A stretch of 64,000 nt of DNA. It comes from Halomarina pelagica. GTDB taxonomy: Archaea > Halobacteriota > Halobacteria > Halobacteriales > Haloarculaceae. The notes under the pieces are model-generated. The model saw only the letters and a program-made list of their open reading frames with translations, did not search any database and had not been told where the DNA came from. The stretch spans positions 930,001-994,000 of the forward strand of contig NZ_CP100454.1 of the NCBI RefSeq assembly GCF_024228315.1, written 5' to 3'. The position numbers were made by a program, and so were the translations under genes. Positions 36,568-45,805 of the stretch are shown here, one piece after another (the first letter of the stretch is position 1; every line of letters begins with the position of its first letter).

Positions 36568-36640
36568 TCGACGGCAGGAGAGCCGTCGTCGCCCGACCGG
36601 AGCGCGGCGATCGCCGTCCCGCCACCCGTCTCCTCTCCGA

Positions 36641-36760
36641 CGAACCTTTTTGTGCGAGAACGGGACCAGCGTCGGCATGCCCTGAGAGTCGCCGCGAGGT
36701 GCGCGCCGGTCGATCCCCGACCGGGCTGCGGTTGCGCGACGCGCCGCCTCGCGTACTCGT
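36641..36760 (+). ncRNA. Candidate structured RNA, copy A
   Basis: It shares with copy B (45521-45620) the block CGAGAACGGGACCAG (36655-36669), an exact 13-base gap, TGAGAGTCG (36683-36691), a stem, and the apical segment CTGCGGTTGCGCGACGC (36726-36742). The stem here is CGCGAGG (36693-36699) with CCTCGCG (36747-36753). In B it is CGCGGGG with CCCCGCG, so an A-T pair is exchanged for G-C, a compensatory change. A has an extra hairpin CCGGTCG/CGACCGG (36706-36724). A T-rich CCTTTTTG sits at the position of B's TATA box. No protein frame is plausible. Confidence 0.55.
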
Positions 36761-36853
36761 GGACGCGTTCGCACCGACGCGTCCGCCCCCGTCGCCTGTT
36801 CGCAAAGAACGAGTCCGCACCGCGGGACCGAGAGATAGCGTACGCTTCGCCGC

Positions 36854-39118
36854 TCAGCGGTCGTTCTCGCGCTCCTGGGCGTCCACCACCGCCACCCCCG
36901 CCAGGTTGACGATGTCCTTGACCTCGTCACCGCGCTGGAGGACGTGGACGGGCCGGTCCATCCCCACCAGCATCGGCCCGATCGCCTCCGCCCCGCCCAG
37001 CCGCTGGAGGAGCTTGTAGGCGATGTTGCCGGCCTCCAGATTCGGGAAGACGAGGACGTTGGCGGGTTCGTCGAGGTCGGAGAAGCTGTAGGTGCCGGTG
37101 AGCATCTCCTCGACGACCGCCGTGTCCGCCTGCATCTCCCCGTCCACCGGAAAGTCGACGTCGGGATCGGAGCGGAGCATCCGCGCCGCCTGGCGCGGCT
37201 TGGCGGTGCCCTCGTTTCTGACGGAGCCGAAGTCGGAGTACGAGAGGAACGCCACCCGGGGATCGACGTTGAACCGGCGGGCGAGTTCCGCGGTGTGGCT
37301 CGCGATCTCCGCCAGCACCTCCTCGTCCGGCGCGAGGTTCACCGTCGCGTCGGCGCAGAAGACGACGCGGTTCTTGAAGGTGAGCATGTAGACGCCGGCG
37401 GCGTAGTTCGCGTCCGCCGCCGTCCCGATCACCTGTAGCGGCGGGCGCAGCGCCGACGGGTAGTGGTGCATCAGGCCGGTGAGCATCGCGTCGGCGTCGC
37501 CCATCTCCACCATCACGCTCCCCAGGTAGTTGCCGTCCTCGATGAGTTCCCCGGCCTCGCGGCGGGTGACGCCCTTGCGCCGGCGCAGTTCGTGGAGCCG
37601 GTCGGCGTACGCCTCGAGACCGTCCTCCTCCGGATCGACGATCTCCGGCTCGAAGTCCAGCCCGAGCGAGTCGGCGGTCCGACGGATCGTCTCGCGACTG
37701 CCGATGAGCACCGGGTGGGCGACGCCCTGTTCGACGATCTGGTAGGCCGCGCGGATCATCTTCTCGTCGTCGCCCTCCGCGAGCACGAGCCGTTTGGGGT
37801 CGCTCTTGGCCTTGTTGAGGACGACGCGCATCATCTCGCGGGACTTCCCGAGGCGCGCCTCCAGACGTTCCACGTAGGCGTCCGTCTCGAGTTCGCCGCG
37901 CGCCGCGCCGCTGTCCATCGCGGCTCGCGCGACCGCGGGCGCGACCTCGAAGAGGACGCGGGGGTCGAGGGGTTTGGGGATGATGTACTCGGGGCCGTAC
38001 TGCAGGGGCTGGTCGCCGTAGGCCTTCACCACCGCGTCCGGCACGTCCTGTCGTGCGAGCCGTGCGAGTGCCTCCGCCGCGGCGACTTTCATGGCTTCGT
38101 TGATTTCGGTGGCGCGGACGTCGAGCGCGCCGCGGAAGATGAAGGGGAACCCGAGGACGTTGTTGACCTGGTTCGGGTAGTCAGAGCGCCCCGTCGCCAT
38201 GATCACCGTGTCATCGCGCGCCTCCTTGGCGTCGTGGTAGCTGATCTCGGGGTCCGGGTTCGCCATGGCGAAGATGATGGGATCGTCGGCCATCGAGCGG
38301 ACCATCCCCTGATCGACGATCCCGCCGGCCGACAGGCCGACGAACACGTCCGCGCCCGCCATCGCGTCCGCCAGGTCACCCTCCGGCACGTCCCGCGCGA
38401 ACTCCTGTTTGAACTCGTTGACGTCGCCCGCCTCGGCGCGTCCGGTCGTGATGATGCCCGAGGAGTCGCACATGGTGATGCGCTCCCGGTCGGCACCGAG
38501 CGAGACGTAGAAGCGGGCGGTGGCGATGGCGCTCGCGCCCGCCCCGGAGAAGACGATGTCGAGGTCGTCGAGGGGTTTGCCGGCGATGTCGGCGGCGTTG
38601 AGCAGCGCCGCCCCGGAGATGATGGCGGTGCCGTGCTGATCGTCGTGGAAGACCGGAATGGACATCTCCTCGCGGAGGCGCTCTTCGATCTCGAAGCACT
38701 CCGGCGCCTTGATGTCCTCCAGGTTGATCCCCCCGAACGTCGGCTCCATCGCCGTCACCGTCTGGATGATGTCTTCGGGGTCCGTCCGGTCCAGTTCGAT
38801 ATCGAAGACGTCGATGTCGGCGAAGCGCTTGAACAGCACGCCCTTGCCCTCCATCACCGGCTTCGACGCCTGCGCCCCGATGTCACCCAGACCAAGGACG
38901 GCAGAGCCGTTCGAGACGACGCCCACCAGATTGCCCTTGGCGGTGTAGGCGTACGCCTCGTCGGGATCGTCGGCAATTTCGAGACAGGGGGCGGCGACGC
39001 CCGGCGAGTACGCAAGCGAGAGGTCGCGTTGCGTGTTCGTCGGCTTCGTCGTCGAAATCTCGATCTTTCCCGGCGGCTCGCGTCGGTGGTAGTCGAGTGA
39101 GTCCTCCTCGATGCCCAT
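36854..39118 (-). CDS. maeB: Malic enzyme with phosphotransacetylase-like domain
   Basis: 754 residues from ATG 39118 ([20 protein letters not shown]). Residues 1 to about 425 are the malic enzyme: [35 protein letters not shown] and [20 protein letters not shown], a Rossmann [12 protein letters not shown] and [14 protein letters not shown]. The C-terminal 320 residues resemble phosphate acetyltransferase ([20 protein letters not shown]) but in this family are usually regulatory. It decarboxylates malate to pyruvate with NAD(P), balancing the glyoxylate bypass genes beside it. Confidence 0.94.
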
Positions 39119-39282
39119 AGGGAGTACCCCGTACAGCGTCGGTAAAAAGATACCCACGAATTCGACGGGCGTGAGGGGTCATGACGTCGGACCGAGAGCT
39201 TCGCCGACGCGCAGTCGGGTGCCGGGTATCGACCGCGGACGTATAGCCGACAGTATAAGTCCTCCCGGCCCCGAGTCGGCGT

Positions 39283-40101
39283 ATGGGTCACCGCTTTCGC
39301 ACCCTCGTCGGGGCTTCGGCGGGGCTGACGTTCCTGCTCGTCCTGCTCGGGGTCTACACGGCGGCGGCCGGCGCGGGGTTGACCTGCAACGCCCGCTGGC
39401 CGCTGTGTGACGGCGCGGTCTTCGGACTGTTCCCCGCCAACTGGGCCAGTTTCGTCGAGTGGTTCCACCGCCTCGTCGCCATGGTCACCGGCTTCGTCAT
39501 CCTCGGGACGACGATCTCGGCGTGGCGGTCGGGCGTCGAGCGGCGCGTTCGGTACGCGCTGGCGCTCGCGACGCTCGTCCTCCCGTCGCAGATCGTCCTC
39601 GGCGCGCTCACCGTCACGCGATACGAACTGCTCATCCTCACGGCGCACTTCGTCACCGCGATGGCCATCTTCACGGGCGTCGTCCTCGCGGCGCTGTGGA
39701 CGTTCGACGGGGGCCGGGATCGCGCCGGGAGGGCCGCGCTCGCCGCCGTCGTCGCGCTTCCCGTGGTCGCGGCGCTGACGCCGCGACTCCTCGTCGACTA
39801 CGTCCCGGCGGCGCAGGTCGCGTACTACGCCGTCGGTCTCGCGGGCTACGCCGCGCTCCTCGGAACGACCACGTGGGCCGACGACGCGACGCCGGCGCTC
39901 GCCCGCGGCGCGACGACGCTCGCGGCGGCCATCCTCTTCGTGCTCCTCGTCGTCGGGCGGCAGGTGTTCGGGGATCGAGGGCAACTGCTGGTCCTCGCCG
40001 GCACCGTCTTCGCGTTCACCCTCGCCGGCGTGGCGCTCTGGCTGACCTCGCGGGCCGCGAGCGTCGACGCGCCCTCCGGCGGACTCCCCGGCGGCGACTG
40101 A
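39283..40101 (+). CDS. ctaA: Heme A synthase (CtaA/COX15 family)
   Basis: 272 residues with about eight membrane helices in two similar four-helix halves. VYTAAAGAGLTCNARWPLCD, VEWFHRLVAMVTGF and LTAHFVTAMAI carry the heme-ligand histidine positions of the N-terminal half, and the C-terminal half is less rich in histidine. The enzyme oxidises heme O to heme A for terminal oxidases in the membrane. A CxxxxxxC pair (C35/C42 area, TCNARWPLC) matches the family. It is divergent from maeB. Confidence 0.9.
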   Translation: MGHRFRTLVGASAGLTFLLVLLGVYTAAAGAGLTCNARWPLCDGAVFGLFPANWASFVEWFHRLVAMVTGFVILGTTISAWRSGVERRVRYALALATLVLPSQIVLGALTVTRYELLILTAHFVTAMAIFTGVVLAALWTFDGGRDRAGRAALAAVVALPVVAALTPRLLVDYVPAAQVAYYAVGLAGYAALLGTTTWADDATPALARGATTLAAAILFVLLVVGRQVFGDRGQLLVLAGTVFAFTLAGVALWLTSRAASVDAPSGGLPGGD

Positions 40102-40135
40102 GGGACGCACCGTCGATTCGTCGATCGAAAAGTTC

Positions 40136-40147
40136 GGTTTCGAAACC
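40136..40147. promoter_or_regulatory. 12-bp perfect palindrome upstream of the amino-acid ABC operon
   Basis: GGTTTCGAAACC lies about 50 bases before a TATA-like AGCTTTATTTTC (40193-40204) and 81 before the first gene of the operon. The position and perfect symmetry suit an operator for the transporter genes. Confidence 0.4.
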
Positions 40148-40227
40148 TGTTTCCACGACTGAACGGGGCGGACGAGCGTGGATTCAAGTGAGTAGCTTTA
40201 TTTTCGCCAATCCCCTCCTCCGCTAAC

Positions 40228-41091
40228 ATGAGTGACGGAAGATCTCTCGGGCGGAGAGCATATCTGAAAGCGGTCGGTGCCGGGTCGGCAGTCGCGCTCG
40301 CGGGCTGTCTCACCGGCGGCGGTGGCGGCGACGGCGGCGGTGGAAACGGAACCGGAAACGGATCGGGTAACGACACCGGTAACGCGACGGACGGCGGCGG
40401 TGGCGGCGGGGAGATCGTCGCCGGTACGGCCCCGGGCTTCCCCCCGTTCGAGATCATGAAGGGCGGCGAGCTGACCGGGTTCGACATCGAACTGCTGGAG
40501 GCCGTCGTCGCGGAGACGAACTACGAACTCACCGGGTGGAAGACGTTCGACTTCAAGTCGCTCATCCCGGCGCTCAACGACGGTGCCATCGACGTCATCG
40601 CGGCCGCGATGACGATCAACGAGGAGCGAAAGCAGTCCATCGCGTTCACGAACCCCTACTACGAGGCCGACCAGTCGATCCTCGTGGCGAAGGGCAGTGA
40701 CTTCTCGCCCTCGAAGCTCGGCGACCTCTCGGGCCACCCGATCGGGGCGCAGAAGGGGACCACCGGTGAGCAGATCATCAAGGATCAGCTCATTAAGCCG
40801 GGGAAGCTCGACCCGTCGAACTACAAGGCGTACGATAACTACGTCCTCGCGGTGACGGACCTGGAGAACGGCAACATCGACGCCGTCGTCCTCGACAAGC
40901 CCGTCGCCCAGACGTTCCAGCAGCAGCGCGACGTGAAGATCGCGTTCACGTACAAGACGGGCGAGGTGTACGGCTTCGGCGCGCGCAAGGACGCCGACCC
41001 GCTCGTTCAGGCGCTCAACCAGGGGCTGAAGGCGGTCAAGGAGAACGGGACCTACGAGGAACTGCGGAACAAGTGGTTCAGCGAGGCGTAA
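40228..41091 (+). CDS. Polar amino-acid ABC transporter, substrate-binding lipoprotein
   Basis: 287 residues. A twin-arginine leader (SLGRRAYLKAVG) and lipobox LAGC (C27) are followed by a Gly/Asn linker and a family-3 solute-binding domain: GTAPGFPPFEIMKGGELTGF, DIELLEAVVAETNYEL and AAAMTINEERKQSIAFTNPY. GAQKGTTGEQIIKDQLIKPG and YGFGARKDADPLVQALNQGL complete it. It captures a polar amino acid such as glutamine or arginine; specificity is not evident. It is the first gene of a four-gene operon. Confidence 0.9.
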   Translation: MSDGRSLGRRAYLKAVGAGSAVALAGCLTGGGGGDGGGGNGTGNGSGNDTGNATDGGGGGGEIVAGTAPGFPPFEIMKGGELTGFDIELLEAVVAETNYELTGWKTFDFKSLIPALNDGAIDVIAAAMTINEERKQSIAFTNPYYEADQSILVAKGSDFSPSKLGDLSGHPIGAQKGTTGEQIIKDQLIKPGKLDPSNYKAYDNYVLAVTDLENGNIDAVVLDKPVAQTFQQQRDVKIAFTYKTGEVYGFGARKDADPLVQALNQGLKAVKENGTYEELRNKWFSEA

Positions 41092-41094
41092 GCG

Positions 41095-41868
41095 ATGGAT
41101 CCGTCGCCCTGGCTGGTACCGCTGCAGGGACCGTGGGCCGACCTGCTCCCGACGCAGGCCGAGGACTGGGAGTTCATCCTCGCTAACGTCTGGTACCTCT
41201 TTGCGGGCCTCGTCGTGACGATCATGCTCACGGTCACGAGCCTCCTGCTCGGCTTCCTCGCCGGCTTCCCCGCCGGAGCCATCGAGGTGTACGGTCGCGG
41301 ACCGCTCCGGAGCGCGATCCGCGCTGCGGGCGTCGCGCTCCGGGGGACGCCGATCCTCGTCATCCTCGTCATCGTGTTCTTCGTGGTACCGATCCCGTTT
41401 CCGAAGTCCGACGTCACGATCCCGACGCCGTGGATGCCGGTGACGTTCAACCAGGGGGCGTTCGCCGCCGCGACGCTCGGTCTCGGTCTGCGGAGCGCGG
41501 CCTACCAGTCGCAGACCTTCCGCGGGGCGCTCCAGAGCGTCAGCGAGGGCCAGATGGAGGCCGCCCGGTCGATCGGGCTGTCGAAACTGGAGGCGATCCG
41601 GTTCGTCATCACGCCGCAGGCCCTCAGGCGATCGATCCCGGGCTTCCAGAACGAGTTCACCATCGTGCTGAAGGACACGAGCATCGCCATCGTCATCGGG
41701 GTGGCGGACCTGTTCTTCCGCGGAAACGCCATCTTCATCCAGCAGACCACGGCGACGCTCGAACTGTTCCTGTTCATCAGCCTCATCTACTTCGTGTTGA
41801 CGTTCGTCACGAACCGCTCGCTCGACTACCTCGGACGGTACTACGCGATCCCCGGAGGAAACTCGTGA
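41095..41868 (+). CDS. Polar amino-acid ABC transporter, permease 1
   Basis: 257 residues of HisM/GlnP type with about five membrane helices. Motifs include YLFAGLVVTIMLTVTSLLLG, ALRGTPILVILVIVFFVVPI and the ATPase-contacting loop EAARSIGLSKLEAIRFVITP. It ends in GTGA shared with the ATPase gene. Two different permease genes occur in the operon, so the channel is probably a heterodimer. Confidence 0.9.
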   Translation: MDPSPWLVPLQGPWADLLPTQAEDWEFILANVWYLFAGLVVTIMLTVTSLLLGFLAGFPAGAIEVYGRGPLRSAIRAAGVALRGTPILVILVIVFFVVPIPFPKSDVTIPTPWMPVTFNQGAFAAATLGLGLRSAAYQSQTFRGALQSVSEGQMEAARSIGLSKLEAIRFVITPQALRRSIPGFQNEFTIVLKDTSIAIVIGVADLFFRGNAIFIQQTTATLELFLFISLIYFVLTFVTNRSLDYLGRYYAIPGGNS

Positions 41869-42617
41869 GTCAGAACCCACTACTGCGCGTCGAGAACCTG
41901 CAGAAGTCGTACGGAGCGGAGGAGGTACTCAAGGACGTCAGCTTCGACATCGAGCGGCGCGACGTCGAGGTCATCATCGGCCCCAGCGGGAGCGGAAAGA
42001 GCACGCTCTTGCGCTGCGTGAACCGCCTCACCGAGTTCCAGGGCGGCGACGTCTACCTGGACGGGCAGTCGATCCTCGACATGGACGTGAACGACCTCCG
42101 CCGGCGCGTCGGGATGGTCTTCCAGGACATCAACCTCTTCGCGCACCTCACCGCCCGCGAGAACGTCTCGCTCGGCCCGCGTCGCGTCCTCGGCGTGGGT
42201 CGCGAGGAGGCGAACGCAACGGCTGACCGCTACCTCGCGCAGGTCGGGCTCTCGGACCAGGCCGACTCGTACCCGGCGGAACTCTCCGGCGGGCAGAAAC
42301 AGCGCGTCGGCATCGCCCGCGCGCTGGCGATGGATCCCGAACTCCTCCTGTTCGACGAGCCGACGAGCGCGCTCGACCCCGAACTCGTCGGCGAGGTGCT
42401 CGAGGTGATGCGCGACCTCGCCGAGGAGGGGATGACGATGCTCGTGGTCACCCACGAGATGGGGTTCGCCCGCCGGGCGGCCACGAACCTCATGTTCCTC
42501 GACGACGGGTACGTCGTCGAGCGCGGCCCGCCCGCCCAGTTGTTCGAGGCCCCCGAGCGCGACCGGACCGCCGAGTTCCTCCGGCGGTTGACGGCCCTCG
42601 AAGAGGGACCCGCATGA
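41865..42617 (+). CDS. Polar amino-acid ABC transporter, ATP-binding protein
   Basis: 250 residues from GTG 41865, overlapping the upstream permease by 4 bases. Walker A is GPSGSGKST, the Q-loop is GMVFQDINLFAHLTA, the signature is LSGGQKQRVGIARAL, Walker B is LLLFDEPTSALDPE and the H-loop is LVVTHEMGFARR. This is the GlnQ/ArtP class. It overlaps permease 2 by ATGA. Confidence 0.93.
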   Translation: MSQNPLLRVENLQKSYGAEEVLKDVSFDIERRDVEVIIGPSGSGKSTLLRCVNRLTEFQGGDVYLDGQSILDMDVNDLRRRVGMVFQDINLFAHLTARENVSLGPRRVLGVGREEANATADRYLAQVGLSDQADSYPAELSGGQKQRVGIARALAMDPELLLFDEPTSALDPELVGEVLEVMRDLAEEGMTMLVVTHEMGFARRAATNLMFLDDGYVVERGPPAQLFEAPERDRTAEFLRRLTALEEGPA

Positions 42618-43594
42618 GCGGCGTGGGCGGGGAGACCGTCACGCGGACGCGGGTCGGTCTCCCCTCCTGGCAGCGGATCGGCACGGCCGTCGGCGCGCTG
42701 TTCTGGGGGTGGCTGATCGTCCGCTGGATCGCGCTGTGGGCTGGCTACAGCCGGCCGTTCCTCCCGAGCGCGCCGTTCGTGCGCGCCGAGGAGGGGTTAC
42801 ACATCGACGCCGAGGTCATCGGATCGACGGGCGGACCGCTCGCGATCCCCGCGGACGTCGTCGCTGGCCTCCTGTCGTGGCTCGGCGACGTCGCCGGGTT
42901 CGTCGCCATCGCGGCCACGAGCCTGCCGGACCTGGCGGCCGGGGCGTGGCTGACCGTCGTCCTCACCGTCGCGAGCATCCTGCTCGGACTCCCCATCGCC
43001 GTCGCGCTGAGCGTCGCACGCATCTACGGCGGACCGGTCTCGCGCTCCCTGTCGCTCGGCTACATCGAACTCATCCGGGGGACGCCGCTGCTCGCTCAGC
43101 TGTTCGTCATCTACTACGGGCTGAATCTCTCGGCGTACTTCCAGACGTTCACCGCCGGTCCGCTCCCCGCCGCCGCCGTGTGGGTGGCCGTCGTCGGCTT
43201 CACGATCAACAGCGCGGCGTACCAGGCGGAGTACATCCGCGCGGCCGTCGAGTCCGTCGACGCCGGGCAGTTGACCGCCGCACGCGCCGTCGGCCTGTCG
43301 AAGCTGGACGGCATCCGCTACGTCGTCCTGCCCCAGGGCCTGCGCTACGCCATCCCGGGGTGGACGAACGAACTCGTCTACCTCATCAAGTACTCCTCGC
43401 TGGCGACGTTCATCGTCGTCCCCGAGCTGTTCACCAGGGCCGACGACATCGCCAGCGAGACGTTCCAGTACCAGGACGTCTTCCTGCTCGTCGCGCTGTT
43501 CTATCTCGCGCTGGTGCTCTCGGCGACGGTGTTCATGGACCGCGTCGAGCAGGCGGTGGCGATCCCCGGCGTGGGCGTTCGCGGCGGCCGCTGA
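42614..43594 (+). CDS. Polar amino-acid ABC transporter, permease 2
   Basis: 326 residues, longer than permease 1 because of an N-terminal region with an extra membrane helix and outer loop (IVRWIALWAGYSRPFLPSAP). The core has GAWLTVVLTVASILLGLPIA, LGYIELIRGTPLLAQLFVIY and the loop AARAVGLSKLDGIRYVVLPQ. It completes the binding protein, permease, ATPase, permease operon. Confidence 0.9.
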   Translation: MSGVGGETVTRTRVGLPSWQRIGTAVGALFWGWLIVRWIALWAGYSRPFLPSAPFVRAEEGLHIDAEVIGSTGGPLAIPADVVAGLLSWLGDVAGFVAIAATSLPDLAAGAWLTVVLTVASILLGLPIAVALSVARIYGGPVSRSLSLGYIELIRGTPLLAQLFVIYYGLNLSAYFQTFTAGPLPAAAVWVAVVGFTINSAAYQAEYIRAAVESVDAGQLTAARAVGLSKLDGIRYVVLPQGLRYAIPGWTNELVYLIKYSSLATFIVVPELFTRADDIASETFQYQDVFLLVALFYLALVLSATVFMDRVEQAVAIPGVGVRGGR

Positions 43595-43643
43595 GCGGCT
43601 CCGACGCCGAACGGTTTTTATCCACCCCCTCCGACGACGGTCC

Positions 43644-45317
43644 ATGGCACTCGAGAGCATCGACGCCGGCGTCTGGTCGCTCGTCCCGGCGCTGGTCGCC
43701 ATCAGTCTGGCGTGGTACACCCGCGATGCCCTCATCGGGCTGTTCCTGGGCGTGGCGAGCGCCGGCGTCGTCTACGGCGCGTTCGTCCCGAAGACGGTGG
43801 GCGTTCCCGCGGGGGTCCAGACGGGGCCGGTCGGGATCGCGCTGGGGGCGCTCTTCGGACTGAAGACCGTTCCCCAGCTCGTGGCGACGGCCCCGCTGTT
43901 CAGCGACGCGTGGTACGTCGAGAACGTCCTGATCGCGATCTTCGCCATCGGCGGCCTGATCGGATTGATGATCCGCGCGGGGGCGATCCAGGGGGTGCTG
44001 GAGGCGCTCGCCGCGCGGGCCGACTCGCCCGCCGACGCCGAGAAGGCCGCCTTCCTCGCCGGGATCGCCGTCCACATCGACGACTACTTCAACTGCCTCG
44101 TGGTCGGCTCGATGATGCGCCCGCTGACCGATCGCTACGACGTCTCGCGGGCAAAACTCGCCTACTACGTCGACTCGGCGGGGAGCCCCGCCGCCCGCCT
44201 CGCGTTCTACTCGACGTGGGGGGCGGCGATGATCGGCTTCATCGGCGCGGGACTGGTCGAGGCGCAGAAACAGGGCACCCTCCCCGGATCGATGGGGAGC
44301 TACGTCGAGGGGACCGGTGAATCCGCTTCGGCGGTCACCCGGGAGATCTGGCCGCTCTTCTTCAACACGCTCTTCACGGGTTTCTACTCGTGGATCGCGC
44401 TCGCCATCGCGGCACTGGTCGCCTGGCAGGTGTTCCCGAACCTGCGGGAGATGCACAGCGAGGAGCGACGCGCCCGGAACGGCGGGGGCGTCGTCGGCGA
44501 GGACCACGACCCGATGATCAGCGAGGAGATGGCCGCCTACGACATGTACGAGGGTGCGACGCCCGACTGGCGCAACTTCGCGTTCCCGATCCTCGTGATG
44601 ATCGCCGTCGGGCTCGGGGCGATGTTCTGGCGGGCGAATCCCGTGATCAGCGCCCCCCAGATGACACTCGCCGCCTCGCTCGCCGGGTACGAACTGTGGC
44701 TCCCGGCCGGCGGGAAGTGGTCGTTCGACATCGGCGGCGTCCACCTCGGCCTCGCCGCCACGGCCGCGATGATCGTCGCGTTCGTCGCGTACCGCCTCCA
44801 GGGGAACATCCCCTCTAACGACGACGCGACCGACGCGCTCATGCGGGGCTTCAAGGGGATCTTCCTCGCGGCGGTCATCCTCATGCTCGCGAGTTCGATC
44901 CAGAACGCCGTCACCACGCTCGGCATCTCGAACTTCGTCACCGACTGGTTCCGCGGCGTCCCGGCGTGGATCGTCCCCGTGAGCGTCTTCCTCGTCACCA
45001 GCTTCGTCAGCTTCTCCGACGGCAGTTCGTGGTCGACCTACGGCATCATGTTCCCCATCGCCATCCCCATCGCGTTCGCGAGCGGCGCGAACCTGCCGCT
45101 CGTGCTCGGGGCGGTCTTCTCGGGGGGCATCTTCGGCGACCACTCCTCGCCTATCTCCGACACCACGGTGCTCGCCTCCTCGACCAGCGGCAGCGACCAC
45201 ATGGTCCACGTCCGCACGCAGATCCCCTACGCGCTCGTCTCCGCGGGGATCGCCGCCCTCCTGTTTCTCCTGTTCGGGCTGCTGTTGCCCGAGGGGTTCC
45301 GGGTCATTCCCTACTAG
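43644..45317 (+). CDS. Na+/H+ antiporter, NhaC family
   Basis: 557 residues with about twelve or more membrane helices. Family features are WSLVPALVAISLAWYTRDAL, FLAGIAVHIDDYFNCLVVGS, GSPAARLAFYSTWGAAM, SFSDGSSWSTYGIMFPIAIP and FGDHSSPISDTTVLASSTSG, the last with the ion-site acid and hydroxyl residues. It exports sodium in exchange for protons or transports a related pair. A TATA box GGTTTTTATCC (43609-43619) lies 25 bases upstream, and a strong hairpin follows the stop. Confidence 0.92.
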   Translation: MALESIDAGVWSLVPALVAISLAWYTRDALIGLFLGVASAGVVYGAFVPKTVGVPAGVQTGPVGIALGALFGLKTVPQLVATAPLFSDAWYVENVLIAIFAIGGLIGLMIRAGAIQGVLEALAARADSPADAEKAAFLAGIAVHIDDYFNCLVVGSMMRPLTDRYDVSRAKLAYYVDSAGSPAARLAFYSTWGAAMIGFIGAGLVEAQKQGTLPGSMGSYVEGTGESASAVTREIWPLFFNTLFTGFYSWIALAIAALVAWQVFPNLREMHSEERRARNGGGVVGEDHDPMISEEMAAYDMYEGATPDWRNFAFPILVMIAVGLGAMFWRANPVISAPQMTLAASLAGYELWLPAGGKWSFDIGGVHLGLAATAAMIVAFVAYRLQGNIPSNDDATDALMRGFKGIFLAAVILMLASSIQNAVTTLGISNFVTDWFRGVPAWIVPVSVFLVTSFVSFSDGSSWSTYGIMFPIAIPIAFASGANLPLVLGAVFSGGIFGDHSSPISDTTVLASSTSGSDHMVHVRTQIPYALVSAGIAALLFLLFGLLLPEGFRVIPY

Positions 45318-45323
45318 ACCACC

Positions 45324-45363
45324 TTTTGCCGCGCGGGCGGCCGAAGGCCGCCCGCTGGCAAAA
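45324..45363. terminator. Long bidirectional terminator-like hairpin
   Basis: TTTTGCC (45324-45330) pairs with GGCAAAA (45357-45363), and inside it GCGGGCGGCC (45333-45342) pairs with GGCCGCCCGC (45346-45355) around GAA. The T-run on one side and A-run on the other make it work in either direction. It starts 7 bases after the antiporter stop. Confidence 0.65.
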
Positions 45364-45475
45364 TCTGGACCAAAACCCTTCCTCACCCCCTCAGTCGCTG
45401 CGCTCCTTCGGGGGTTCGTCGGTCCGCTCGCTCGGCTTCGCCTCACTCGCGGGTGCCGCGCTGGTGCCAGCGGTG
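45354..45475. repeat. Intergenic repeat element, copy R1
   Basis: It runs from GCTGGCAAAATCTGGACC through CCTCACCCCCTCAGTCGCTG to CTGGTGCCAGC. It matches R2 (45684-45805) in order and spacing over about 120 bp at roughly three quarters identity by eye. The ends GCTGG/CCAGC are inverted. No protein frame is credible. Confidence 0.6.
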
Positions 45476-45520
45476 ACCCTCTAAGTGCGTTCGGATCGCT
45501 CGGGCTGTCCGCCCGCGCCG

Positions 45521-45620
45521 TAGCTTTATATCCGAGAACGGGACCAGACCCCGTATGATGTGAGAGTCGTCGCGGGGCGCTCTGCGGTTGCGCGACGCCA
45601 CGCCCCGCGAACCCGATCTC
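45521..45620 (+). ncRNA. Candidate structured RNA, copy B
   Basis: A TATA box CTTTATAT (45524-45531) precedes CGAGAACGGGACCAG (45533-45547), a 13-base gap, TGAGAGTCG (45561-45569), the perfect stem CGCGGGGCG/CGCCCCGCG (45571-45579 with 45601-45609) and apical CTGCGGTTGCGCGACGCC (45582-45599). GAGA-TCG (45562-45569, one G bulged) can also pair with CGATCTC (45614-45620), closing an outer stem. TATA position predicts a start near 45555, just before the structure. All spacings equal those of copy A at 36641. Function unknown. Confidence 0.6.
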
Positions 45621-45683
45621 GCCCGCGGCGTCGCCTGCACGCCCACGGTTTACTGCGCTCACTCGTCGCTGCGCGCCTCGTTC

Positions 45684-45805
45684 GCTGGTAAAACCTGGAT
45701 CAAAACCGCGCCTCACCCCCTCAGTCGCTTCGCTCCTTCGAGGGTTCGGCGCGTCCGCTCGCTCGCCAGCGTCGCTGGCTCGCTCGCGGTACGACGCACC
45801 AGCAA
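45684..45805. repeat. Intergenic repeat element, copy R2
   Basis: GCTGGTAAAACCTGGATC, then CCTCACCCCCTCAGTCGCTT and TCCGCTCGCTCG, ending in GCACCAGC. It parallels R1 across its length, in the same orientation, with the candidate RNA between the two copies. Confidence 0.6.

Follow-up and report, generated by a model that had tools for sequence, protein, structure and literature searches.

A widespread family of haloarchaeal RNAs with a predicted leaderless start-X-stop mini-ORF, a pseudoknot and a promoter shared with pilus and DNA-handling genes

Within a 64,000-nucleotide stretch of the Halomarina pelagica genome (NCBI RefSeq assembly GCF_024228315.1, contig NZ_CP100454.1, positions 930,001 to 994,000 of the forward strand; this whole stretch is called the window below), two elements, copy A and copy B, are on comparative grounds members of a multicopy structured-RNA family, both helices of which covary strongly. 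Each carries a start codon, one further codon and a stop codon (a mini-open reading frame, mini-ORF) at its predicted transcript start, followed at a near-fixed distance by a pseudoknot; to our knowledge, a conserved two-codon ORF in such an architecture is known nowhere else. Judged from sequence, promoters of the same type stand before a conserved set of predicted leaderless genes across Halobacteriales: a pilus ATPase with DUF7310, DUF7283, DUF7382, Pilin_N, NucS-like, Cas4-like and TctA-like genes. We propose that a leaderless RUG-NNN-stop RNA with a pseudoknot is switched on together with these pilus and DNA-handling genes and engages ribosomes, a reading to which we give an even chance.

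An earlier note on this DNA had described A and B as an undescribed structured-RNA family with its own promoter, and that description holds: both copies lie where it placed them, the TFB-recognition element (BRE) and TATA box stand at a fixed distance, the helices covary in the 147 and 59 elements analysed below, and there is no Rfam match. Of its conserved words, the 14-mer GAGAACGGGACCAG and the 17-mer CTGCGGTTGCGCGACGC, the window holds two perfect matches apiece, one in A and one in B, and no others; its compensatory stem is borne out (CGCGAGGTG/CGCCTCGCG in A and CGCGGGGCG/CGCCCCGCG in B, 9 base pairs (bp) each), as are the inserted hairpin in the loop of copy A and the equal TATA distance (30 nucleotides (nt) from TATA to ATG, which stand at 36647 and 36677 in A and at 45525 and 45555 in B). 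The transcript starts that it predicted (45555 and about 36678) fall on the start codons of the mini-ORFs (45555 and 36677). It had overlooked the second pseudoknot strand and the start-X-stop mini-ORF, as well as how many copies there are and that a regulon shares their promoter. The features of the two copies, with P1 and S2 as the two pseudoknot helices and R3 as a sequence model of the promoter, are as follows.

36641..36653, +, copy A: BRE CGAACC (36641-36646) and TATA-like box TTTTTGT (36647-36653); R3 match G000:C1:966640-966679, E-value (E) 3.6e-7
36661..36668, +, copy A: regulon box CGGGACCA, kept in elements and in leaderless genes
36677..36685, +, copy A: leaderless mini-ORF ATG CCC TGA, predicted +1 at 36677
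36693..36701, +, copy A: P1 5′ strand CGCGAGGTG
36702..36735, +, copy A: loop 1, with the inserted hairpin ahead of GCGGTTGC
36736..36742, +, copy A: pseudoknot S2 5′ strand GCGACGC
36745..36753, +, copy A: P1 3′ strand CGCCTCGCG
36761..36784, +, copy A: linker with extra hairpin GGACGCG...CGCGTCC
36789..36803, +, copy A: S2 3′ strand CCGTCGC (6/7 pairs) and conserved tail CTGTTCGC
45519..45530, +, copy B: BRE CGTAGC and TATA box TTTATA (45525-45530); R3 match G000:C1:975517-975555, E 2.1e-8
45539..45546, +, copy B: regulon box CGGGACCA
45555..45563, +, copy B: leaderless mini-ORF ATG ATG TGA, predicted +1 at 45555
45571..45579, +, copy B: P1 5′ strand CGCGGGGCG
45580..45591, +, copy B: loop 1 with conserved GCGGTTGC
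45592..45599, +, copy B: S2 5′ strand GCGACGCC
45601..45609, +, copy B: P1 3′ strand CGCCCCGCG
45627..45643, +, copy B: S2 3′ strand GGCGTCGC and conserved tail CTGCACGCC

Size, spread and age of the family

Searches used a covariance model, R1, built from 32 copies (alignment A1) with the promoter included, and a second model, R2, which leaves out the promoter, the mini-ORF and the S2 pairing and keeps the sequence profile of both S2 strands and of the tail. R1 scores copy B at E 1.7e-30 and copy A at E 2.8e-19 (both are in its training set); R2, trained on neither copy, scores copy B at E 1.3e-7 and copy A, which carries inserts, at only 0.18. Plain folding energy is unremarkable (z -0.02 to -2.28 over six stretches), and such folding cannot model a pseudoknot.

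Where the earlier note had counted two copies, R1 finds 55 solid family members at E<=6e-12 in the H. pelagica genome; every one lies on the 3.54-Mb contig C1, and the 617-kb C2 has none (chance about 6e-7 if they were spread by length). Halomarina halobia has 19 copies by exact pattern search, and the scan of named genomes used a pattern close to the Halomarina copies. The covariance-model search of haloarchaeal genomes returned further homologues with covarying stems: R1 matched 181 of 293 sampled Halobacteriales genomes, in 60 of 87 genera, at E<=0.01, and 155 of the 293 at E<=1e-6. Since R1 includes the promoter, it can match a promoter that stands alone, as two weak matches in H. pelagica itself did (L199, E 2.3e-5; L200, E 0.007), and the genomes at the weak end of the 181 may therefore lack the RNA. 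Copy numbers outside H. pelagica are lower bounds, with at most 13 candidates scored per genome. With R2, 39 of 392 genomes in a phylum sample were matched, all from the same order or closer (the number sampled outside the order is not given).

No Rfam 15 family scored above its gathering cut-off at A or B in a search of the window, and a relaxed Rfam search of 36630-36820 and 45500-45660 gave a sole match, to sR24 in copy B, at 14.4 bits against a cut-off of 36. A C/D box small RNA was rejected on this result, copy A having no such match; on an H/ACA RNA, with its pseudouridylation pocket and 3′ ACA, the lack of an Rfam match bears only indirectly. Copy B, the sole query, had no match in plasmid or phage collections; among viral contigs two exact pattern matches were found, neither with a TATA box, regulon box or mini-ORF in the stretch inspected. 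Fourteen non-haloarchaeal pattern loci, lacking a TATA box or GGGACCAG, were taken as chance matches. Literature searches listed no paper whose title or opening of the abstract points to the RNA, its box or a haloarchaeal competence regulon, which is weak evidence of absence, most subscription papers and all preprints lying outside the coverage.

The counts below refer to two sets. The first, a non-random one, holds 147 elements from 66 genomes, namely 54 of the 55 H. pelagica copies and 93 R1-listed matches from 65 other genomes; the excluded copy A keeps ATG-CCC-TGA, nine of nine P1 pairs and six of seven S2 pairs. The second holds 59 loci, which are the 70 listed R2 matches minus 11 already known, two of them identical over the first 40 nt.

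Among H. pelagica copies the RNA core has a median identity of 0.72 (range 0.51-1.00), and of 106 inter-genome locus pairs with a common neighbour gene, 68 have it on the same side and strand (for example L092, L093, L120 and L184, in four genomes and two families). Since the copies have diverged and have kept their neighbours in this way, many of them are probably old and inherited in place. By crude gene calls the neighbours of the 147 elements are convergent in 55 cases, tandem in 35 and 29, divergent in 20 and unresolved in 8, and given this mixed orientation the elements look like free-standing units. One H. pelagica copy (L191, G000:C1:1994378-1994505) is truncated to the promoter, mini-ORF and P1 5′ strand and lies about 280 nt upstream of an intact element. 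Weak second matches to the RNA part (R2, E 0.001-0.12) also occur about 120-480 nt from full elements, at G000:C1 444344, 761539, 1994957, 2601335, 2855706 and 3352951, and are possibly decayed neighbours.

A covarying H-type pseudoknot

The strands of the element follow in the order P1 5′, loop 1, S2 5′, one nt, P1 3′, linker, S2 3′, which is that of an H-type pseudoknot. P1 (9 bp) is paired in 97.7% of 1323 cells across the 147 elements, with 172 both-side changes against a shuffle maximum of 34; in alignment A2, where some ten rows are mis-registered at P1, the figure is 91.4%. S2 joins a strand of the P1 loop (consensus GCGACGCC) to a strand just ahead of the tail CCTGTTCGCC; the latter strand was positioned by the tail motif with complementarity left unused. 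Over seven pairs, 97.2% of 1027 S2 cells are paired, compared with 18-61% in slid controls; over eight pairs the figure is 92.2% of 1172 cells, and both-side changes number 141, where shuffles average 53 and reach 67 at most; the eighth pair is weak (83/145). A tool count on 67 diverse members gives both-side changes at 15 of the 16 pairs.

In the 59 R2 loci, S2 has seven of seven pairs in 48, six in nine and five in two, and swapped partners reach seven of seven in 23%; these serve as the control because R2 itself holds the sequence profile of the S2 strands and the tail. The strand GCGAC, which the earlier note had taken for an apical sequence, has its partner in the downstream CGTCGC (A, 36790-36795; B, within 45627-45634). 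The apical 3-bp stem GCG/CGC, present in R1 and in the 32 A1 copies, is broken in some members from other genera and was dropped. Loop 1 is 11-14 nt long in 145 of the 147 elements, with a conserved GCGGKNGY, and hairpin inserts are tolerated in the linker and the loop, as in copy A. The predicted small RNA would be about 90-130 nt long, with P1 of 9 bp, S2 of 7-8 bp and the S2 partner ahead of the tail CCUGUUCGCC.

A start-X-stop mini-ORF ahead of P1

RTG-NNN-stop stands at a near-fixed place before P1, followed by about 7 nt and then the pseudoknot. The 147 elements start with GTG (134), ATG (10) or ATC (3) and have at codon 3 TGA (136), TAA (9), TAG (1) or, in L157, no stop. P1 begins 16 nt from the start in 132 of them, 15 nt in 2 and 17 nt in 13, and the spacer between stop and P1 is 7 nt in 132. 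Counted by alignment columns, 21 different middle codons occur, and the dipeptide is not conserved.

In the R2 loci, whose mini-ORF columns played no part in the search, RTG-NNN-stop is found in 50 of 59 (40 TGA, 8 TAG, 2 TAA). By eye, L237 reads GTG GTC AAC TGA, its stop delayed by one codon and its P1 beginning 16 nt from the start, and L236 has an ATG without an early stop; the seven loci without ATG or GTG keep the codon-3 stop in L208, L214, L246 and L256 and lack it in L213, L250 and L254. Pooled over 206 elements, 196 have an ATG or GTG start and 200 a codon-3 stop (179 TGA, 12 TAA, 9 TAG), and the stop is absent in 2 of the 196 with a start compared with 3 of the 10 without (Fisher p 8e-4). 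One syntenic locus has TGA, TGA, TAA and TAG in four genomes (L143, L164, L161 and L170). That the three stops interchange, TGA to TAG needing two changes, and that the stop depends on the start, together argue for translation. An ATC recurrently replaces the start codon with the codon-3 stop still in place (L085, L122, L196, L208, L214 and L246).

The earlier note had held that no protein frame is plausible. This stands insofar as none is conserved beyond the mini-ORF (the length from start to stem end, modulo 3, divides 63/63/21, so that no conserved frame runs through the stem), while the mini-ORF itself, ATG-CCC-TGA in A and ATG-ATG-TGA in B, had escaped it.

A promoter shared with pilus and DNA-handling genes

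The region upstream of the mini-ORF resembles the haloarchaeal leaderless promoter, with BRE and TATA box (compare the accessible part of PMC4983044), together with a box CG[GC]G[AG]CCA (CGSGRCCA). Its CCA begins 11 or 12 nt ahead of the start codon in 140 of the 147 elements, and the promoter spacing fits a leaderless transcript, one that begins at most 5 nt from its start codon, with the predicted start; by the same partial source (PMC4983044), leaderless transcripts make up 72% of the protein-coding ones in Haloferax volcanii. The H. pelagica genome has 36 occurrences of the exact pattern TTTAT-N7..10-CGGGACCA, three of them by eye not elements, and none of its reversed control. A promoter score of at least 12 is reached in 52 of the 59 R2 loci, against none of 59 control windows.

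R3 has 68 matches in the H. pelagica genome at E<=0.003, by eye 54 elements and 14 others. With one more match at E 0.023, the latter make 15 non-element sites, behind which lie genes for PLD-like, DUF3006 and DUF7382 proteins, a HerA-like ATPase, a NucS_N protein and a single-stranded-DNA-binding protein; DUF7283, then DUF7285, DUF7284 and DUF7286; DUF7310 and, adjoining it, a T2SSE pilus-type ATPase; TctA and Pilin_N; and a weakly Cas4-like protein, a small membrane protein, a short ORF and CinA. The start codon falls within 2 nt of the RTG position of the elements in 12 of the 15 sites, the exceptions being the single-stranded-DNA-binding gene, CinA and the short ORF. At L276 (G000:C1:1758837-1758875, minus strand) a 19-codon ORF occupies the leaderless start position ahead of the single-stranded-DNA-binding gene.

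The association extends across the order. A NucS-like gene is present in 43 of 59 genomes, and at 30 of its loci an in-frame ATG follows the best box at the right spacing in all 30, with a score of at least 12 in 29; the pilus ATPase (27 of 30 loci used, the match starting inside the protein in three) has an in-frame start in 24 and such a score in 21. On the reverse strand of the same windows the counts are 0/30 and 0/27, and in other windows of the same loci 0/2299 for NucS and 68/2399 for the ATPase, where neighbouring pilus genes may carry the box. The NucS-like and ATPase loci with a box come in part from genomes in which no RNA was detected. R3 gave 18 matches in five of six genomes that have no detected elements; 13 of the 17 readable ORFs there are BLASTP homologues (E<=2e-13) of H. 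pelagica regulon proteins, and the remainder comprises one RDD protein, one LURP-one-like protein and two short ORFs. Because the box precedes homologues also in genomes without the RNA, it appears hence to be an old regulon promoter, of which the RNA is a frequent but not universal part.

Across the 293 genomes, elements and ATPase occur together in 153, elements alone in 28, the ATPase alone in 43 and neither in 69 (Fisher p 6e-16, phylogeny and genome incompleteness being ignored); with elements at E<=1e-6 the counts are 138, 17, 58 and 80. From these genes we infer a DNA-uptake-like regulon, with the RNA as its probable most numerous output. In one genome (G005) without an ATPase match at E<=1e-60, a regulon promoter (L358) precedes an ORF whose N-terminal part resembles the pilus ATPase over 145 amino acids and whose remainder resembles DUF5791.

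Proposed mechanism and alternatives

We suggest that a regulator acting at the box turns on a programme resembling pilus formation and DNA uptake or DNA exchange, and that many such RNAs would then be made at once. A ribosome would load on the 5′-terminal start codon, the 16 single-stranded nt just filling its mRNA channel and the pseudoknot standing at the entry. One codon on, the stop would be in the A site, the stem would have to begin opening and the pseudoknot would act as a roadblock. The RNA may in this way park or recycle ribosomes, as a translational brake or a ribosome-bound regulator, with no useful peptide made. We favour a ribosome-loading, pseudoknot-stopped RNA because the 16 nt from start to stem are close to the span covered by a ribosome whose P site holds the start codon. 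A more speculative extension, which we place on the doubtful side, is a DNA-uptake or exchange programme under a dedicated box, whose main output would be ribosome-parking start-X-stop RNAs that brake growth or translation, in a role comparable to the bacterial K-state.

Several points weigh against ribosome engagement and the regulon attached to it. The ribosome geometry depends on general toeprint values, which are +15 to +17 when the P site is occupied by the start codon. Canonical starts are lacking in 10 of 206 elements, so ribosome loading may not be universal or not essential, and spacing is looser in the R2 set (15-19 nt to the first R2 base, 16 nt in 32 of 50). The covariation controls are shuffles and slides, with no phylogenetic null. 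As to the regulon, the Cas4-like matches are below curated cut-offs, the single-stranded-DNA-binding gene and CinA start 86 and 164 nt from the start of the promoter match and are not leaderless, 28 genomes have elements without an ATPase match (17 at E<=1e-6), and the label 'DNA uptake' is taken from domain names. The start codon also counts here: GUG opens 134 of the 147 elements, and in H. volcanii it is a minority leaderless start (6-9%) linked to weak expression, according to the accessible part of PMC4983044.

The main rival to ribosome parking is that these are base-pairing or protein-binding small RNAs that act by way of loop 1 (GCGGUUGY) as well as of the pseudoknot and the tail (CUGUUCGCC), with an RUG that is a by-product of the promoter and a stop that serves only to guard the fold from accidental ribosomes. 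This we consider a serious possibility, while leaning against it. In its favour, loop 1 and the tail contain nearly invariant stretches, the stop constraint is relaxed where the start is absent, and the same promoter normally starts on ATG ahead of proteins. A non-functional start would, however, be expected to drift, whereas RUG is retained in 196 of 206 elements; it is GUG that dominates, not AUG; and P1 at 16 nt from the start in 132 of 147 is placed more tightly than protection requires.

The elements could instead be repetitive, mobile or DNA-level entities, such as repeats like miniature inverted-repeat transposable elements (MITEs), uptake sequences or decoy sites for the regulator. They are dispersed and multicopy, expanded in some genomes and flanked in many H. 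pelagica copies by other repeats, and one copy (L191) is truncated. Against this, the H. pelagica copies have diverged and yet kept their compensatory pairs, this divergence and the shared neighbours described above argue against recent mobility, copy B is unmatched in plasmid or phage collections, and decoys need neither an RNA fold nor a stop codon, all of which makes this explanation quite unlikely. A cis-acting leader or terminator of neighbouring genes is improbable: where the right-hand gene is convergent, the 3′ end of the element lies within 40 nt of the gene end in 51 of 90 cases, but by crude gene calls the 147 elements have no fixed orientation, and the same-strand right-hand neighbour that a leader-peptide attenuator calls for is present in only 49. 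A small protein gene, or readthrough of the mini-ORF stop, is hardly credible despite the start codon and a stop, 7-nt spacer and pseudoknot that resemble viral readthrough signals, for loop 1 lengths of 11-14 nt put any continuation in different frames, the stem changes are compensatory and 21 of 200 stops are TAA or TAG.

This widespread archaeal RNA family, with 55 loci in H. pelagica, would offer a natural minimal substrate that makes archaeal leaderless initiation and termination testable, and its box, which ties the RNA to conserved pilus and nuclease genes, gives a handle on whether haloarchaea regulate DNA uptake.

Nearest known systems

Programmed readthrough signals have a spacer of about 8 nt between stop and pseudoknot. 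Like the retroviral pseudoknots of murine leukaemia virus (MuLV) gag-pol type, the elements combine a stop, a short spacer (here 7 nt) and an H-type pseudoknot; unlike them, they have no conserved frame past the stop, which is here codon 3 of a predicted leaderless transcript. The two-codon ORFs of the lambda bar minigenes likewise consist of a start codon, one sense codon and a stop, whereas the present mini-ORF is predicted to be leaderless, is followed by a conserved pseudoknot and occurs in up to dozens of copies.

In H. volcanii, some structured untranslated small RNAs occupy ribosomes with no protein detected (PMC12482152, accessible part). The present RNAs resemble these in being haloarchaeal, short and structured; by description alone they differ, no start-X-stop, pseudoknot, multicopy family or regulon box being described in that part of the report (PMC12482152). 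The predicted co-regulation of pili and DNA-processing proteins resembles that in bacterial competence regulons and, as far as the accessible part of PMC11868833 goes, the Ups/Ced systems of Sulfolobales. In contrast to both, the box here is a different one, the RNA is the most numerous target, and DNA uptake is a prediction from the genes.

Neighbourhood of copies A and B

Both copies lie between convergent genes, copy A between HpcH/HpaI-like and malic enzyme/phosphate acetyltransferase genes and copy B between genes for an Na+/H+ antiporter family protein and an RFC-like AAA protein. Palindromic intergenic repeats of the form TTTTGCyGCG-stem-CTGGCAAAA, at about 45324-45363 and 45648-45693, flank copy B; repeats of this separate family also flank many other H. 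pelagica copies.

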